A DNA stretch of 64,000 nucleotides from Shinella fusca (lineage in GTDB: Bacteria; Pseudomonadota; Alphaproteobacteria; Rhizobiales; Rhizobiaceae), in the NCBI RefSeq assembly GCF_014203155.1, contig NZ_JACHIK010000003.1, forward strand, positions 310,001 to 374,000, written 5' to 3'. The notes beneath the pieces are model-generated. The model was not told the DNA's origin. It saw nothing but the letters and a program-made list of their open reading frames with translations, and ran no database searches. Below, piece by piece: positions 50,564-62,696 of this stretch (position 1 is its first letter; the number at the start of each line of letters is the position of its first letter). Both the position numbers and the translations under genes were made by a program.

Positions 50564-50651
50564 GCACAAGGCGCGCCCGCGGGCGCGCCGCCTGCCGCAG
50601 CGTCAAGCACCCGAGAAGAGCGCTGCAACTTTATGATATGCAAGGAAAAGG

Positions 50652-50695
50652 TGGAGGCCTCGCCGAGAATCGAACTCGGGTGCAAGGATTTGCAG
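50652..50695 (-). other. attL: 3' fragment of a tRNA-Cys(GCA) gene
   Basis: Read on the minus strand: anticodon loop CTGCAAA (GCA anticodon), stem TCCTT, variable GCAC, T-arm CCGAG-TTCGATT-CTCGG, acceptor strand CGAGGCC, discriminator T and CCA. The geometry is exact for tRNA-Cys, whose discriminator is U. Upstream of the anticodon loop the bases no longer pair and no GGCCTCG acceptor strand exists, so the 5' half is missing. This is the left attachment site; an intact tRNA-Cys should stand at the right junction. Confidence 0.8.
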
Positions 50696-50755: not shown

Positions 50756-51928
50756 TCAGTCGAGCAAACTGTTCGCGGCTTGTGCTAGTTCTGTCCCGTC
50801 ATCCGACCGTGGGAAGAGGTGACCGTAGGTGTCCATGGTCATCACGATTGAGGCGTGCCCCATGCGCTCCTGAACCATTTTCACCGGCAGACCGAGTCCG
50901 CCGTCTTCCTTCCGGTTGATCAGCCAAGACGCGAAGAAATGCCGTAGGGCGTGGAGACCTGTATATTTCGCGGAGACGTTTTCACCGGCGCCGACGGTAA
51001 CGCCGGCCCGGATCATCGCCGGCTTCAGCCCCTTATTGACGATGTTGGTATGGGAGCGAGGTTCGCCATCGGGATTGGCAAACACGAGATCGACACCATG
51101 AGCCTGTTTCAGCTTATGTTCCTTCAGGGCGCTGATGACGACTGGCGGAACGGGGATAGTTCGAACGCCAGCCTCTGATTTTGTCGGCCCGATCTCCCTG
51201 AACTGGTCGGCGCGCTGGTGGATGCTGATCTCGCCCTTCTTGAAATCCACGTCCTGCCACCGCAGCCCGCGCAGCTCGGACGATCTCATGCCGGTGAATA
51301 CGGTTGTGAGGAGCATCGGCTTCCAATGACCGTCCAGGACGCTGACGAGCGCCTTGATCTCCTCACGGGTGGGAATATCCACCCCTACCTCCAGTTTGCC
51401 CTTTTGGCGCTTCTCCTGCCGCCTGTCGCGGCCCTTCCGGCTTCCCCTGATATCTCGGACTGGATTGCGGGTCGCAAGGCCACGCTCGCCAGCGTCGGAT
51501 AGGATCGAGCCGAGGGAGGTCAGCACCTTTTTCACCATTGCCGGTGATCGCCCTTCCTTCCGCATCCGGTCCTCGAAATCGCGGACGGCCGGCACGTTGA
51601 GCTTTGATAGAAGCATCTGACCAATCATCGGCACGATATGGTGCTCTAGGTGGCTCTTGCGCTGATTTATCGTCGATCGTTCAAGGCCCGCGCTTTCGCC
51701 CGAGACAATCCATAGCTTTCCGGCTTTTTCCACGGTGACGCTGGCCGAGTCGGCGACGTGCGTTCCCTCGCGAACCTCGACCGAAGCCGTTGCGGCGAAG
51801 GCATCCGCCTCTTTCTTTAGCCGGAACGTCTTGAGGCGGCGCTGACCGGCCGTGTCGAAGTAATCGACCACCCAGGCGGATTTTGCCTCTCCTTTCGGAG
51901 TCTTCCATTCCCGCTTACGGACGGACAT
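50756..51928 (-). CDS. int: Phage tyrosine-recombinase integrase
   Basis: A 390-residue site-specific recombinase with all catalytic residues visible: R215 (TGMRSSELRGL), K250, H326 and R329 (HALRHFF), H358 (MGHAS) and the nucleophile Y368 (MDTYGHLF). The N-terminal arm-binding and SAM-like core-binding domains precede (residues 1 to about 175). It lies right beside attL with its 3' end outward, the usual arrangement. Its ATG shares a base with the stop of the upstream RHH gene (TGATG), so the two are translationally coupled. Confidence 0.95.
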   Translation of the reverse strand: MSVRKREWKTPKGEAKSAWVVDYFDTAGQRRLKTFRLKKEADAFAATASVEVREGTHVADSASVTVEKAGKLWIVSGESAGLERSTINQRKSHLEHHIVPMIGQMLLSKLNVPAVRDFEDRMRKEGRSPAMVKKVLTSLGSILSDAGERGLATRNPVRDIRGSRKGRDRRQEKRQKGKLEVGVDIPTREEIKALVSVLDGHWKPMLLTTVFTGMRSSELRGLRWQDVDFKKGEISIHQRADQFREIGPTKSEAGVRTIPVPPVVISALKEHKLKQAHGVDLVFANPDGEPRSHTNIVNKGLKPAMIRAGVTVGAGENVSAKYTGLHALRHFFASWLINRKEDGGLGLPVKMVQERMGHASIVMTMDTYGHLFPRSDDGTELAQAANSLLD

Positions 51929-52530
51929 CAGAAGGGAATTCCGTCATCATCATCACCATACGGATTTTTGATCGGGCGCTCCGCAAATTTCTCTGTTGTT
52001 CCGTTCCGCTCAAGCGATTCGACTTCTTCGAGATCAAGGTCGTCCACAGCGCTTTTCGCGGCTTCATAAGCCTCCCAGTCCTCACGTTCTTTATAATCCT
52101 TCCACAGAGCGAGAAGGCGTTTTCGTGCATCCTCTTCGAGGCCGGTAACCCTACCGGATGCTATTCCATCCAGGGTTTCCTCTACGGCAGCGGTAAAATT
52201 GTTGATGTGCTCGTCCGAGGCCCCAGTTTTAATAATTCCGAGGAGATCAGCCAAGTATTCGAGCCGTTCCGAAGCAGGCCATTGAACGGGAAACTCACGA
52301 TTTAGAAGCCGCAATATTTCTTCGTTCGCTGTCCGGTCATTGCGCTCCGCGTACATCTTAATGCGTTCGCGAAGCGCGGTCGGGAGGATCAGCGGCTCCC
52401 TGAAAGATTCTTCCAGCCGCTGCACGATTTCCGCAGTCATGCTGCGCGCGTTGCGCTCAGCCTGCTGTTCAATCTGGCGCTTCAAATCCTCGGGGATACG
52501 CAGCCGAAAATGTAAATCGTCTCTTGCCAT
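51928..52530 (-). CDS. Arc-family regulator with two ribbon-helix-helix domains
   Basis: A 200-residue protein. Residues about 6-43 form an Arc-type ribbon-helix-helix (LHFRLRIPEDLKRQIEQQ then AERNARSMTAEIVQRLEES) and residues about 48-81 form a second (ILPTALRERIKMYAERNDRT then ANEEILRLLNREF). The rest is an acidic helical tail. The two domains in one chain could make an intramolecular pseudo-dimer. The start codon itself overlaps the first of six 9-bp direct repeats in the control region, so autoregulation is likely. No CI- or Cro-like protein is seen nearby, which makes this the leading candidate for the lysogeny switch. Confidence 0.8.
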   Translation of the reverse strand: MARDDLHFRLRIPEDLKRQIEQQAERNARSMTAEIVQRLEESFREPLILPTALRERIKMYAERNDRTANEEILRLLNREFPVQWPASERLEYLADLLGIIKTGASDEHINNFTAAVEETLDGIASGRVTGLEEDARKRLLALWKDYKEREDWEAYEAAKSAVDDLDLEEVESLERNGTTEKFAERPIKNPYGDDDDGIPF

Positions 52531-52610
52531 GCCTCACCAATGCCACACGAAGGTATTGACAGCAATGCCGCACGTATGCCACACACTCTCATGCCGCACC
52601 AATGACACAC
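52529..52610. promoter_or_regulatory. Control region with three pairs of 9-bp direct repeats
   Basis: The motif ATGCCNCAC (one copy ATGACACAC) occurs six times in the same orientation, starting at 52529, 52540, 52565, 52576, 52591 and 52602. Within each pair the starts are exactly 11 bp apart, one helical turn; pairs start 36 and 26 bp apart. The region lies between the start codons of the leftward RHH-int operon and the rightward early operon. This is the expected look of a cooperative operator for tandem RHH units. A TTGACA at 52556-52561 may be a -35 element. Confidence 0.75.
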
Positions 52611-52632: not shown

Positions 52633-52821
52633 ATGGATACGGCATCGGAGAAAATCGATCTTGTCTGGGGCGCTGAAGAAATCGCGAAGGTTATCGGTCG
52701 ATCCGCCCGGGTCACCTTCCATCTGCTCAGCACCGGCAAGCTTCCCGCCAAGAAGGTGGGAAGCCGATGGGTCGTTGAGCGCAGTAAGCTCGTCGCGTTC
52801 TTCACGGAGGACGCGGCATGA
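52633..52821 (+). CDS. Excisionase-like helix-turn-helix protein
   Basis: A 62-residue protein with a MerR/excisionase-type winged helix: WGAEEIAKVIGRSARVTFHL, then LPAKKVGSRWVVERSKLVAF. Its size and place, first in the rightward operon opposite the integrase operon, fit a recombination directionality factor or an early regulator. Its stop overlaps the next start by four bases. Confidence 0.75.
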   Translation: MDTASEKIDLVWGAEEIAKVIGRSARVTFHLLSTGKLPAKKVGSRWVVERSKLVAFFTEDAA

Positions 52822-53225
52822 TCATCGTGCCCGCAAAAGAAAATGGCCCGGCAAGCGTTGGCGCGCTTCCGGACCTTGGTTCCATCATCCCCACGAAGGA
52901 TATGAAAATGAACGAGGTAACGAATACCACGGCCGGGCCGGTTGCACCAGACCCGCTCCTCCAAACCATAAGGCTCTATCAGCGTGGGCTTTTGGACTTC
53001 AACGCGCTTGCCGTGGGCGATGTCGACTGGAGCAAGATCGCAGACGAAACCTACGGTCCTCATCTGCAAACACTCTCGGAGTGGGACACGCCGGCGGCCA
53101 CGTTTGAGGGCGCCGTCGAGGCCCTTCGGATATCACTCACTGAAGAGGATGGTGTGTACGGTTGCGATGCTGCTGATCGTATGGTCAGGGCCGCATACGC
53201 ATTCCTGAAGGAGGCTGCAATATGA
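52818..53225 (+). CDS. Phage protein of unknown function
   Basis: A 135-residue protein coupled by an ATGA overlap to both neighbours. No domain is recognised. The C-terminal part (ATFEGAVEALRISLTEEDGV, ADRMVRAAYAFLKEA) is helical. Internal ATGs at about 52903-52910 offer shorter forms starting MKMNEVTNTTAG. It is part of the early operon. Confidence 0.6.
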   Translation: MIIVPAKENGPASVGALPDLGSIIPTKDMKMNEVTNTTAGPVAPDPLLQTIRLYQRGLLDFNALAVGDVDWSKIADETYGPHLQTLSEWDTPAATFEGAVEALRISLTEEDGVYGCDAADRMVRAAYAFLKEAAI

Positions 53226-53425
53226 GCACCGCTTCCAAGCTTGGCGATATCATCGATTTGCTCGCCACCGTCAGATACCTGAACGAGGCAGTCTTCATGG
53301 CCGCCTCCCACCCTGGCCTTACCAAGGATGCCACTAACGCGATCCAAGCGGTGGTCGGCGAGATGGACAGCAAATTGCTGGCCGCCGAAGAACGCGTCGA
53401 AGAAGTCATGGAGGCGCTGAAATGA
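53222..53425 (+). CDS. Small phage protein, helical, unknown
   Basis: A 67-residue acidic helical protein (GDIIDLLATVRYLNEAVFMA, MDSKLLAAEERVEEVMEALK) with four-base overlaps on both sides. No known domain. Confidence 0.6.
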   Translation: MSTASKLGDIIDLLATVRYLNEAVFMAASHPGLTKDATNAIQAVVGEMDSKLLAAEERVEEVMEALK

Positions 53426-53712
53426 TCACCGTCACCAAGGAACTCATTGAAAACACCTACGACGCCGTGACGATCATGCGGCTATTCAGCCAGCGCCTTT
53501 CCGAGGGCGAGGTCCACGATAACGAAGCCAGCGAAATGTCATGGCTGCTTGGCAGCGCGAAGAGGCGGCTGGAGCCCGTCCTCTACCTGCTGGAAAAGAT
53601 CGAGCACGAGCAGGAGCAGCGGACACCGGCCGAACTCGAGATCATCGACGAGTTCAACGACCTGCAGAAACGCTGGGATGCCCTCAAGGCGAAGCTGGAG
53701 GGCAAGGCATGA
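53422..53712 (+). CDS. Small phage protein, coiled-coil, unknown
   Basis: A 96-residue protein predicted to be entirely helical, with a C-terminal coiled coil (EIIDEFNDLQKRWDALKAKL). It overlaps its neighbours by four bases. No known domain. Confidence 0.6.
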   Translation: MITVTKELIENTYDAVTIMRLFSQRLSEGEVHDNEASEMSWLLGSAKRRLEPVLYLLEKIEHEQEQRTPAELEIIDEFNDLQKRWDALKAKLEGKA

Positions 53713-54190: not shown

Positions 54191-54831
54191 CGCACCTACC
54201 CTGGATGCCAGTTTATGTCGGCGATGAACTGGCTGAGACTTCCCATCTCAATGCGGAAGAGTATGGCGCCTATGCGCTGCTCAAGATGCATCTGTGGCAG
54301 CATGGCCGGCTTCCGTGCGATGACGAGCGTCTGGCTCGCATAGCGAAATGCGCTGCCGAGCGGTGGGATTTCGTCAAGGAAGCAATCTGGACGCTCTTCG
54401 CCGATGACTGGCGGCATCCCCGCCTTGAAGCTCTTCGCGCGCAGTCGGAAGCGACCCACAAGAAGCGTTCGGAAGCTGGCCGACGGGGTGGGCGCCCGCG
54501 GGTTTCAGAAAAGCCGGGCTTTAGCCGGGATAAAGCCGGGCCTAAGCATCCACAACCACAACCACAACCACAATCAGATTCATATTCAGATCCAGAAGCA
54601 CAGGCACAACCACATGGCTCTGCTGCTGAGGAAGATAAAAGGGATACGAATACGCGCGAGAGCATGTTCGAAGCCTATCCGGTGCCGTCGTCGCCCGCAG
54701 AAGGCAGGGCATTCCTCACGCGGCTTGGCGTTTCCCGCGCGCATATGGACGCCGCCCTAAAGATGCTGCTCGGCGGTAATCTCTCCCCCTACGAGATAGA
54801 AGGTATGATCGAAAAGCGAGGTGCGGCATGA
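54187..54831 (+). CDS. DUF1376 (YdaU-like) phage replication-type protein
   Basis: A 214-residue protein. The first 100 residues are a DUF1376 domain (MPVYVGDELAETSHLNAEEY, YALLKMHLWQHGRLPCDDER), common in lambdoid replication modules next to DnaC-like loaders, and end in the typical KKRSEAGRRGGRP. A low-complexity linker follows (PQPQPQPQSDSYSDP), encoded by CCACAA hexamer repeats, then a C-terminal helical domain. No DnaC/DnaB helicase follows, so the replication module looks minimal. Confidence 0.8.
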   Translation: MTHLPWMPVYVGDELAETSHLNAEEYGAYALLKMHLWQHGRLPCDDERLARIAKCAAERWDFVKEAIWTLFADDWRHPRLEALRAQSEATHKKRSEAGRRGGRPRVSEKPGFSRDKAGPKHPQPQPQPQSDSYSDPEAQAQPHGSAAEEDKRDTNTRESMFEAYPVPSSPAEGRAFLTRLGVSRAHMDAALKMLLGGNLSPYEIEGMIEKRGAA

Positions 54832-56725: not shown

Positions 56726-56864
56726 GTGTTGGGCGACGAAAACGATTGGGCGGTAATCAATTTTGTCCACGAAGCCGTCTTTTCAATGACTTGACTGTCA
56801 CAATCAACGTTGACATTTGACACGGCCATGAGAATATCCAGTGGCAACCGCTGGAGAGCAGGCC

Positions 56865-57545
56865 ATGGCCGACAAGCTGCGATATGTCATCTACACCCGC
56901 GTCTCGACCGAGGATCAGGGCAAGTCAGGGCTCGGCCTTGAGGCACAGGAGCGAGACATCGCCATCTTCCTCGAGAAGTTCTCCGCGGTCCCGTTCGAGA
57001 TCATGGGCCGGTACCAGGACGTTCAGAGCGGTGGAGACGACAGCCGGCCCGAACTCGACAAGGCGCTGGCCATCGTCCGAAAGAGCGGTGCCGAGCTCCT
57101 GGTCGCAAAGCTCGATCGCCTCAGCCGAAAGGTCTCGTTCATCGCCACGCTCATGGACGACAAGCGGGTACGGCTCCGGGTGGCCTCAATGCCCTTTGCC
57201 GATAAGTTTCAACTGCATATCTATGCCGCCCTCGCCGAGCAGGAGCGTACGTTCATCAGCGAGCGGACAAAGGCGGCGCTGAGGATGGCCAAGGAGCGAG
57301 GTGTTAAGCTCGGAGGCATGAGGGACGCCACCGGTGCCCGAAACGCCGCTGTACAGGCCCGTGCGAGCCGAGAGGCCTCAAAGCTGATGAAGATTATCGG
57401 TCCGCTGCACGATGCCGGGACGTCCCTGCAGAAGATCGCCGCAACTCTCGACGAGCAGGGTATCGGAACGTCCCGGGGCGGCCGATGGACGGCAAAGCAG
57501 GTCTCTCGCGTGCTAGACCGGGCGAAATCCTCACTCGATGCATGA
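56865..57545 (+). CDS. Serine recombinase (resolvase/invertase family)
   Basis: A 226-residue recombinase starting MADKLRYVIYTRVSTEDQGK, with catalytic serine at S14, the conserved LLVAKLDRLSRK arginine motif, the long E helix (HIYAALAEQERTFISERTKA) and a C-terminal helix-turn-helix (TSLQKIAATLDEQGIGTSRG). It is the size of a small resolvase or invertase, not a large serine integrase. It is a second site-specific recombinase in the same prophage, adjacent to the packaging genes. An ATG eight codons upstream is possible. Confidence 0.88.
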   Translation: MADKLRYVIYTRVSTEDQGKSGLGLEAQERDIAIFLEKFSAVPFEIMGRYQDVQSGGDDSRPELDKALAIVRKSGAELLVAKLDRLSRKVSFIATLMDDKRVRLRVASMPFADKFQLHIYAALAEQERTFISERTKAALRMAKERGVKLGGMRDATGARNAAVQARASREASKLMKIIGPLHDAGTSLQKIAATLDEQGIGTSRGGRWTAKQVSRVLDRAKSSLDA

Positions 57546-61130: not shown

Positions 61131-61796
61131 ATGTTTTTCAATCGCGATAAGTCCACCGAGCCGCGTACCGGGTTGACCGATGCGAAGAAGGCCCAGATCA
61201 ACGCCGTGGTGAAGTCCTGGGGCCAAGTGAAGGTCGCGGGACGCACTCCGACCTATGACGGCACCGAGCCGCCCGTCCAACTCCTCTCCAAGGAAGAGCT
61301 GGATTACTTCCTCCAGGCCATGGAGCAGGAGGCGGCCCGCATCGATGCCGAAGCGACCGAGCTGAGCAAGCGCCGGCTGGCCGAAATCGCCGAGAAGGAT
61401 GCACAGATTGCTTCCCTCAATCGGGAGATCGAGGCAACGCGCGAGCGTGTCAATGCACAGGGGCTTGAAGTCCAGCGCCGTGCAGATGCTCGCGCCAAGC
61501 TCCTCGCGGTGGTTCGGAAGATCGAGCCGAACCTTGATGCGTCCAAGATCACCAAGGACGCCGATATCCGCCGCGAGGTAGTGCGCCGCAGGTTCGGTGA
61601 CGCCGCAGTCGATGGCCGGTCGGAGGCTTATGTCGACGAGCGCTTTGAATCGCTGGAGGCCCGCGTCAACGTCGATCCATTCGCCGCTGTGATGAAGGAT
61701 CATGGCCGCACGCCAGCTCCCGGCACTCGGGAGGCAGCGGATAAGGCGTGGCAAAACATGGTCGATGACCTCACCAGCTATCACAGGAAACACTGA
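61131..61796 (+). CDS. Coiled-coil phage protein, unknown (possible scaffold)
   Basis: A 221-residue protein from ATG 61131, chosen for the strong AGGAGG a few bases upstream; an earlier in-frame ATG at 61092 lies inside the previous gene. A long central coiled coil (LAEIAEKDAQIASLNREIEA) is the main feature. Confidence 0.6.
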   Translation: MFFNRDKSTEPRTGLTDAKKAQINAVVKSWGQVKVAGRTPTYDGTEPPVQLLSKEELDYFLQAMEQEAARIDAEATELSKRRLAEIAEKDAQIASLNREIEATRERVNAQGLEVQRRADARAKLLAVVRKIEPNLDASKITKDADIRREVVRRRFGDAAVDGRSEAYVDERFESLEARVNVDPFAAVMKDHGRTPAPGTREAADKAWQNMVDDLTSYHRKH

Positions 61797-61889
61797 TCCG
61801 GATCGGCCCCGGCCGGGCGGCGGCGAGGAATGGGCTCTTCTCCTCCCTCGGGTTCCTCGTCGCCGCTTCACTCACGAAAGGACGCCAGC

Positions 61890-62696
61890 ATGCGCTTGCA
61901 GGACAAACTTACAATCGACGGCACCCGCCGCACCCGCGACGGATACATGACTGTGAATGCCCGTGTCGCTCGCGCCGACAATGTGCAGGTCTACGCCGGG
62001 TGGGAAGTCGGCAAGCCGGAGATGCAAACGGTGCGCGTGTTCCGGCCGGCCGACGAGGTGTTCAGCACCGATACCATGCAGAGCTTCGCGCATCGCCCTG
62101 TCACCCTCGATCATCCTGACGAAGCGGTCAGCGCTTCCAACTGGCGCGACGTCGCCAAGGGCTGGAGCGACGGCGAGGTGGCGCGGGACGGCGAGTTCAT
62201 CCGCGTCTCGATGCTCCTGGCCGACGCAACTGCGATTGAGGCGGTGGAGAAAGGCCAGCGGGAGCTTTCCATGGGGTACGATTGCACCTTGGACTGGACC
62301 GCCGGCAAGTCGCCCTCCGGCGAGGCTTACGACGCCGTGCAGCGCGGCATCCGCTCCAATCATATCGCCATCGTCAAGCAGGCTCGCGGGGGTGCTGACC
62401 TTCGGATCGGCGATAGCGGCCATAAGAATCTTGCTACGGTGGAAGATGCCGAGCGCCGCGCCATGCGGGATAGCGTCAAGGGAATGCCGCTCACCGATGC
62501 CATGGCACTGCCGCTCTATGACGACATTCGGGGCGTGATCGTGTCGGGGATGCCGGCTGAGCGGTATTACGCGATCCTTGACGGTGCGAACGTGGGCGAA
62601 CATCGGCGAAGCGCCGAGGAGATCGCCTGCGATCAGGCCTACACAAAGATGGTCGCCGATCTGAACAAAGCCTATCGCGGTGGAGGAACTGAATGA
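61890..62696 (+). CDS. DUF2213 phage protein (prohead-protease-like)
   Basis: A 268-residue protein whose whole length matches DUF2213: LTIDGTRRTRDGYMTVNARV, SFAHRPVTLDHPDEAVSASN, MLLADATAIEAVEKGQRELS and SNHIAIVKQARGGADLRI. DUF2213 proteins normally sit between portal and capsid genes and are thought to be head-maturation proteases. Neither partner is present on either side here. Confidence 0.85.
   Translation: MRLQDKLTIDGTRRTRDGYMTVNARVARADNVQVYAGWEVGKPEMQTVRVFRPADEVFSTDTMQSFAHRPVTLDHPDEAVSASNWRDVAKGWSDGEVARDGEFIRVSMLLADATAIEAVEKGQRELSMGYDCTLDWTAGKSPSGEAYDAVQRGIRSNHIAIVKQARGGADLRIGDSGHKNLATVEDAERRAMRDSVKGMPLTDAMALPLYDDIRGVIVSGMPAERYYAILDGANVGEHRRSAEEIACDQAYTKMVADLNKAYRGGGTE

Follow-up and report, generated by a model that had tools for sequence, protein, structure and literature searches.

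Six repeats as half-sites of a predicted ribbon-helix-helix operator within a proposed two-way prophage switch of Shinella fusca

The stretch of DNA analysed here, 64,000 nucleotides from Shinella fusca (the window), contains a prophage element in which a regulator of the Mnt/Arc type (51928-52530, minus strand, 200 aa) lies back to back with a small partner gene (52633-52821, plus strand). The regulator, presumed repressor of both directions, reaches 60.3 bits against Pfam Arc (PF03869, cut-off 20.4), placing it in the Arc/Mnt group of ribbon-helix-helix (RHH) proteins, and Mnt itself (1mnt_A) aligns with residues 2-59 (E 6.7e-6). In RHH proteins a ribbon of two strands contacts the DNA; the presumed DNA-reading domain here is a first RHH head (52393-52527, minus strand, residues 2-46) with the strand LHFRLRI. 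Behind the regulator, sharing the border at 51928, follows a tyrosine integrase gene (50756-51928, minus strand; Pfam Phage_integrase E 5e-21), presumably in one operon with it. The partner, first gene of the rightward operon, encodes a 62-aa winged-helix protein (HTH_17-like) of excisionase/Cox-like appearance, matching Pfam HTH_17 with E 2.3e-5 and 25 bits, below the cut-off of 27, and PHROG excisionase families with E 0.003-0.004. Its top fold matches, all to winged helices, included Pukovnik Xis, a phage P2 DNA-binding protein that we take to be P2 Cox, RdfS, and also BldC and gpNu1, with a best E of 0.037 and no match significant by E-value; the assignment to the winged-helix class, and hence not to RHH, was made by profile. 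Small genes without assigned function follow rightward, and farther on a terminase and a head protease.

The element is flanked on the left by a 45-nt attachment repeat (50651-50695), 91% identical to a right copy (68699-68743, equal to L171:4699-4743) that overlaps a tRNA-Cys gene at the gene's 3' end, just past the window, and because the repeat recurs over tRNA-Cys the element is probably about 18.1 kb long. In IMG/VR the same prophage is recorded with 56,566 bases, beginning with the regulator and extending far past the right repeat. The 18-kb element was searched for another repressor by open reading frame listing and partial family scans. Farther into the prophage, 55877-56725 matches Pfam putAbiC (E 4e-19) and is a putative phage abortive-infection gene, and 56841-57545 encodes a serine recombinase of the resolvase/invertase type (E 1.7e-26), a second recombinase beside the tyrosine integrase. 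The adjacent frames 61131-61796 and 61830-62696 both match phrog_530, a head maturation protease family, but in reversed order: the first matches its C-terminal part, the second its N-terminal part.

The divergent control region holds the repeats. The earlier note had counted six copies in one orientation; all six indeed share the plus strand, five being exact copies of ATGCCNCAC (starting at 52529, 52540, 52565, 52576 and 52591) and the sixth (52602-52610) reading ATGACACAC, one mismatch away. As also noted there, they form three pairs with exactly 11 bp within each, the pair starts being 36 and 26 bp apart. Block A (52529-52548, plus strand) consists of A1 (52529-52537, ATGCCTCAC) and A2 (52540-52548, ATGCCACAC), spanning the stretch immediately upstream of the regulator start, where A1 meets the start codon (CAT, 52528-52530) as previously described, in an overlap of two bases. 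Block B (52565-52584, plus strand) consists of B1 (52565-52573, ATGCCGCAC) and B2 (52576-52584, ATGCCACAC), and block C (52591-52610, plus strand), likewise a direct pair in the window, of C1 (52591-52599, ATGCCGCAC) and C2 (52602-52610, ATGACACAC).

Outside this cluster, a single exact ATGCCNCAC match occurs in the 64-kb window, at 54821 on the minus strand. Allowing one mismatch yields 56 matches across the window, and no other place in it gathers at least three of these within 75 bp on one strand. Among 200 versions of the 64 kb simulated with a first-order Markov model, none exceeded a cluster of three (reached in 5), versus six observed. The total of six exact matches in the window is less extreme, being attained in 2 of 100 shuffles, and it is the clustering that stands out. 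Across the 4.85-Mb genome a degenerate pair pattern matched exactly three times, each at the operator locus, and a reversed control pattern yielded 0 matches. The repeat cluster is thus beyond chance and unique in the genome.

Between blocks A and B lies TTGACA (52556-52561, plus strand), the probable -35 element of a rightward promoter, and block B extends between and over the presumed -35 and -10. The hexamer 17 nt downstream, CCACAC (52579-52584), falls inside half-site B2 and is poor as a -10. In the relatives introduced below, TTGAC recurs at the equivalent place in 51 of 63. The presumed -10 has two of six consensus matches in all 12 loci of the window's strand class, whereas 31 loci belonging to other strand classes average 2.8. 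Since the -10 is poor throughout the strand class, rightward transcription may start weakly or depend on an additional factor. A consensus promoter scan returned no promoter, and the leftward promoter was likewise not located.

We then turned to relatives of the locus. A first search, by the sites, gave 76 viral stretches, and a Mnt-type RHH gene was present in 24; a second search was conducted by protein alone to avoid the circularity of the first. Of the 76 loci from the protein search, 8 duplicated others in both the regulator and the first 90 nt and 5 were non-members (L162, L163, L164, L166 and L167, from gammaproteobacteria and an acidobacterium); the 63 left form a set that stays close to the window's strand class because the query profile derived from proteins found partly via the sites. 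Among the members from named genomes 29 of 30 are alphaproteobacterial by record name and one is just 'Proteobacteria', with Rhizobium, Mesorhizobium, Shinella, Devosia, Aureimonas, Gluconobacter and other genera represented. A 3138-base locus from a genome of the window's genus is 100% identical to a Shinella sumterensis contig. Scanning for ATGMCNCAC with one mismatch on either strand detected at least two half-sites upstream of the regulator in 60 of the 63 relatives and at least four in 40; at 594 other reading-frame starts of the same loci, the corresponding numbers were 2 and 0. Conservation was seen at each place (A1 in 49, A2 in 43, B1 in 46, B2 in 36 and C1 in 34 of the 63), and 29 relatives carry all four A/B half-sites in register. 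Loss of the repeats with retention of the regulator, the finding that had been named as speaking against an operator, is rare, as only three of the 63 (L112, L122 and L124) have no half-site before the regulator gene. By comparison of relatives, sites and protein are thus associated, supporting the proposal of the earlier note that the repeats are a predicted operator of the RHH regulator in the divergent control region.

The first gene on the rightward side varies between the 63 relatives, being another RHH gene in 34, a winged-helix gene in 11 and neither in 18. An integrase gene stands directly behind the regulator at nine of the ten testable loci with a winged-helix partner, one of 33 with an RHH partner and none of 18 with neither; in a larger gene-pair set, which includes those nine, it does so at 50 of 52 testable loci, 9 of the 61 having too short a stretch of DNA past the regulator for the test. 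Of these contexts, the window shows that of winged-helix partner and integrase. As a separate observation, seven loci (L118, L120, L119, L121, L123, L127 and L161) combine an RHH regulator and A/B-type sites with neither an RHH nor a winged-helix partner, and their right side shows a different frame of about 130 aa, conserved by eye. Four others (L142, L145, L146 and L155, strand PHFRLRI) have two palindromes of the ATGACGCAC-G-GTGCGTCAT type before the RHH gene and no direct pairs; a nearby frame has a LysR-like start by eye, and the subgroup is possibly chromosomal, not phage.

A search with the winged-helix protein gave 68 loci, to which 9 genome loci were added. Profiles recognised both genes in 61 of these, and 58 remained once loci with the same RHH domain were merged. 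Most of the 58 agree in gene order and in where TTGAC lies. Their operator words, in contrast, are diverse (ATGGCTA/TAGCCAT, TAGCAC/GTGCTA, TATCC/GGATA, GGTGC/GCACC and TGTAGCTA are examples) and stand mostly in inverted pairs by eye; the regulators display 29 distinct strands and roughly ten operator-word groups, again by eye. Operator similarity was expressed as shared repeated 6-mers, in intergenic text that, for classes with an extended N-terminus, takes in part of the regulator gene, and compared with the strand (residues 6-12) in permutation tests, which correct for shared ancestry only in part. Controlled for RHH helices and partner, strand and operator are correlated with a partial r of 0.555 (0 of 2000 permutations, n=58), compared with r 0.050 for the RHH helices (111 of 2000) and r -0.031 for the winged-helix partner (1666 of 2000). 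The strand correlation persists in 37 diverged representatives (r 0.652, 0 of 2000), with the last 110 nt only (r 0.496, 0 of 1000), and without the window's class, both in full (r 0.464) and with 110 nt (r 0.453; each 0 of 1000). For the winged-helix partner r stayed between -0.09 and 0.02 in five tests. The helices gave r 0.063, 0.075 and 0.090 in the 110-nt run and the two runs without the window's class (17, 13 and 4 of 1000 permutations), a small residual effect that may reflect shared ancestry.

Pairs of loci give the same picture: words are shared in 26 of 41 pairs with like strands and unlike helices, and in 2 of 496 with unlike strands (<0.6) and like partners (>=0.6). The partner of L242 is 75% identical to that of the window, and the operator word there is quite different. 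A finer link concerns regulator Arg3. It was counted in 39 of the 63 loci, those with His or Tyr at position 7, an LRI strand and two or more words that start with ATGMC. A final C is present in 112 of 122 half-sites with Arg3 (34 loci) and in 3 of 20 without it (5 loci, which may be one lineage). Taken together, the comparison suggests that operator words track the RHH strand and not the winged-helix partner, and the co-variation of site and protein that the earlier note had proposed to look for is found, alongside the half-sites in 60 of 63 relatives. In a 1989 paper, Knight and Sauer reportedly attributed the DNA-binding specificity of both Arc and Mnt to a short N-terminal region.

These comparisons also bear on the possibility that the repeats are instead sites of the excisionase-like winged-helix protein (52633-52821). 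Direct orientation and a spacing of 10-11 bp are typical of recombination directionality factors, according to PMC7498355. Apl of phage 186, for instance, binds directly repeated sites spaced by one turn, both at att and in the region that separates pR from pL, and the predicted fold of the partner fits the group of directionality factors. Moreover, direct C blocks lean to the loci with a winged-helix partner (7 direct and 3 inverted, that is 7/10, against 7 direct and 16 inverted, 7/23 scorable, with an RHH partner; Fisher p 0.057). However, the winged-helix gene is replaced by an RHH gene in 34 of the 63 relatives, 29 of which keep a direct A or B pair and 19 all four half-sites, and, as the correlations above indicate, the sites do not change with the identity of the winged-helix partner. 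Most other strand classes have inverted sites, by eye, and outside the operator the 4.85-Mb genome lacks exact copies of the pair, also around the attachment repeats. We therefore consider an assignment of the repeats to the winged-helix protein unlikely, and quite probably the six repeats are half-sites of a single predicted operator that serves the RHH regulator (51928-52530), within a proposed two-way switch.

How does this module relate to established phage switches? P22 immI (mnt - O - arc - ant) likewise consists of a Mnt-family RHH regulator, 1mnt starting with ARDDPHF, and a divergent gene, and TTGACA starts at a similar distance from the first base of the regulator's CAT, 25 nt in P22 immI and 28 nt in the window, with operators at and beyond it. 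On the other hand, the P22 immI record contains one Arc and one Mnt operator, whereas the window has three blocks with one half-site word in direct pairs; the P22 partner is Arc with Ant as the next gene, whereas that of the window is a winged helix; and an integrase follows the Mnt-type regulator in the window, unlike in P22 immI. By Pfam, no antirepressor domain was found in the proteins 52818-53225, 53222-53425 and 53422-53712, a subset of the rightward operon frames, and a 295-aa frame of the element is DUF1376 and no antirepressor. The window module is thus not a member of P22 immI, having neither a divergent RHH partner nor an antirepressor among the proteins scanned.

A pure immI-type module, chiefly controlling an antirepressor and not lysogeny itself, would nevertheless fit the protein family, the divergent layout and the TTGACA position, which are all much like P22 immI. 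It would also fit the RHH-partner relatives, whose right side often holds antirepressor domains (KilAC 19, Rha 12, AntA 4, Bro-N 4 and KilA-N 4 in 64 frames, with multiple matches per frame possible). Two annotated phages, Paracoccus phage Pyei1 and Acetobacter phage phiAX1, show the same arrangement, with KilAC/Rha or KilA-N genes coming after a divergent pair of Arc-type genes. But the partner in the window is not RHH, the proteins scanned to its right are free of antirepressor domains, and the loci with a winged-helix partner gave one KilAC and one Rha match in 20 frames, making such a role of the window module quite unlikely compared with a repressor operator in a switch with integrase and excisionase-like factor.

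In P2 (int - C - Pc/Pe - cox) and in 186 (Apl), covered in part by PMC7498355, repressor and integrase are co-directional and a small winged-helix excisionase gene comes first on the other side, as the excisionase-like gene does in the window. However, the P2 C repressor is a helix-turn-helix protein and that of the window RHH, which sets the module apart from P2, and the half-sites of the window repressor lie on both sides of TTGACA, unlike in P2. By analogy, the module resembles P2 in part through its gene order and P22 immI in part through its repressor, as a member of neither. The previous description of the switch as distinct from CI/Cro is thus fair, with the qualification that its parts are precedented, the protein family and layout in P22 Mnt/Arc and the gene order in P2-type phages. 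Nothing like the module was recognised among the open-access papers searched.

The regulator itself has a composite architecture. Pfam Arc matches it in two stretches, in agreement with the two Arc-type domains claimed earlier; the second, however, is without the conserved strand residues. This RHH 2 (52288-52392, minus strand, residues 47-81) keeps its helices and begins what appears to be an older repressor body reaching to the C-terminus, and the conserved strand Phe and Arg are absent from it in the window and in L136 and L179 (3 of 3, by sequence), the regulators of which have the same fused form. In an AlphaFold2 monomer model (mean pLDDT 87), the helices of head 1 span 14-26 and 31-44, with residues 1-10 of low confidence, and those of RHH 2, after a gap of six residues, span 51-63 and 68-79; as neither unit shows a paired strand in the monomer, the model cannot decide on RHH 2. 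Residues 45-200 align over almost their entire extent with whole regulators that carry a single RHH and belong to other strand classes, among them L196 (E 9e-32; 5-149 of 156 against 19-162 of 165), L206 (5e-30) and L193 (2e-26). Based on this homology of head and body, the simplest account is that the regulator looks like a new RHH head placed before a complete repressor of another specificity class, RHH 2 most likely being the disarmed original head behind a newer one that sets the present specificity.

An alternative suggested in the earlier note is that the two RHH domains of one chain each seat one half-site, giving rise to the 11-bp pairing. The two Arc stretches per chain and the spacing of the pairs agree with such a fit, and the first PDB match by both sequence and fold is permuted single-chain Arc (1u9p), with two RHH units per chain (sequence E 6e-6, with the matches falling on head 1 only; fold E 0.11, rmsd 10.9 over 74 columns). 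Yet regulators of 73, 77 and 79 aa (L110, L100 and L115), with no room for a second RHH, are found with all four A/B half-sites, indicating that the second unit is not needed for pairing. The same holds in a larger set, where 12 regulators with the window's strand, from 94 to 270 aa, have like operators and the complete fused form occurs in only three. With, in addition, the strand residues lost from RHH 2 and its helices beginning six residues from the last helix of head 1, the proposed fit of chain to paired sites is not borne out, and we regard it as very unlikely. A centromere-like partition site (parS/parC type) for an RHH partition protein appears highly improbable: RHH partition proteins (ParR/parC, omega) do use direct-repeat arrays upstream of their own gene, and the best PHROG family of the regulator is labelled 'partition protein ATPase', but that label is also attached to Mnt in the P22 record and thus uninformative, no ParA or ParM gene was seen among the neighbours scanned, and the element sits at tRNA-Cys behind an integrase. 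As an aside, phrog_795, phrog_2685 and Mnt in NC_002371.2 are all Mnt-type repressors labelled 'partition protein ATPase', apparently a mis-annotation that has spread.

Two further RHH systems are instructive for how the predicted operator of the regulator may be read. The omega repressor of pSM19035 binds contiguous 7-bp heptads in both orientations in plasmid partition and copy control. Both orientations of one word are thus common to omega and the window family, although the latter has 9-bp words at 11 bp and belongs to prophages. AmrZ of Pseudomonas aeruginosa, with several binding modes, has a similar RHH head (3qoq, E 5e-11 with profile A1), but it is a host regulator, and the available part of PMC3325190 gives no description of direct-pair arrays. 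Within the 63 relatives, a direct A or B pair and an inverted C site of the same word occur together in 25, hence the dimer apparently accepts both orientations. Head 1, through its strand LHFRLRI, would read ATGCCNCAC, and from the example of Arc and Mnt we infer that two dimers probably sit side by side on each 11-bp pair. Given the position of block B over the presumed rightward promoter, its occupation should silence the early operon together with the excisionase-like gene. Block A coincides with the start of the regulator, and binding there should make the regulator restrain its own expression and that of the integrase gene that follows. The outcome would be a two-way switch, presumably serving lysogeny, with integrase and repressor on one side and the excisionase-like factor and early genes on the other.

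For annotation, such loci would represent a recognisable switch of repressor-integrase and excisionase-like factor that is not CI/Cro. The wider series of strand and operator classes is in our opinion a more interesting result than the single module. To our knowledge, few natural pairs of RHH protein and operator are known well, and because strand and operator words co-change in otherwise constant surroundings, the reading rules of RHH proteins become testable with natural pairs. We lean, with some reservation, towards the view that immunity specificity in this family resides in an exchangeable cassette of RHH head and operator, with conserved integrase and excisionase-like partners, and that it changes either by strand changes or by grafting of a whole new head before a complete repressor, the old head being disarmed. 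The window would then be a captured head-graft, and the 58 regulators a natural recognition-code series comprising many superinfection-immunity groups. In this manner, the exchange or addition of a head of roughly 46 residues might move a temperate phage into another immunity group.
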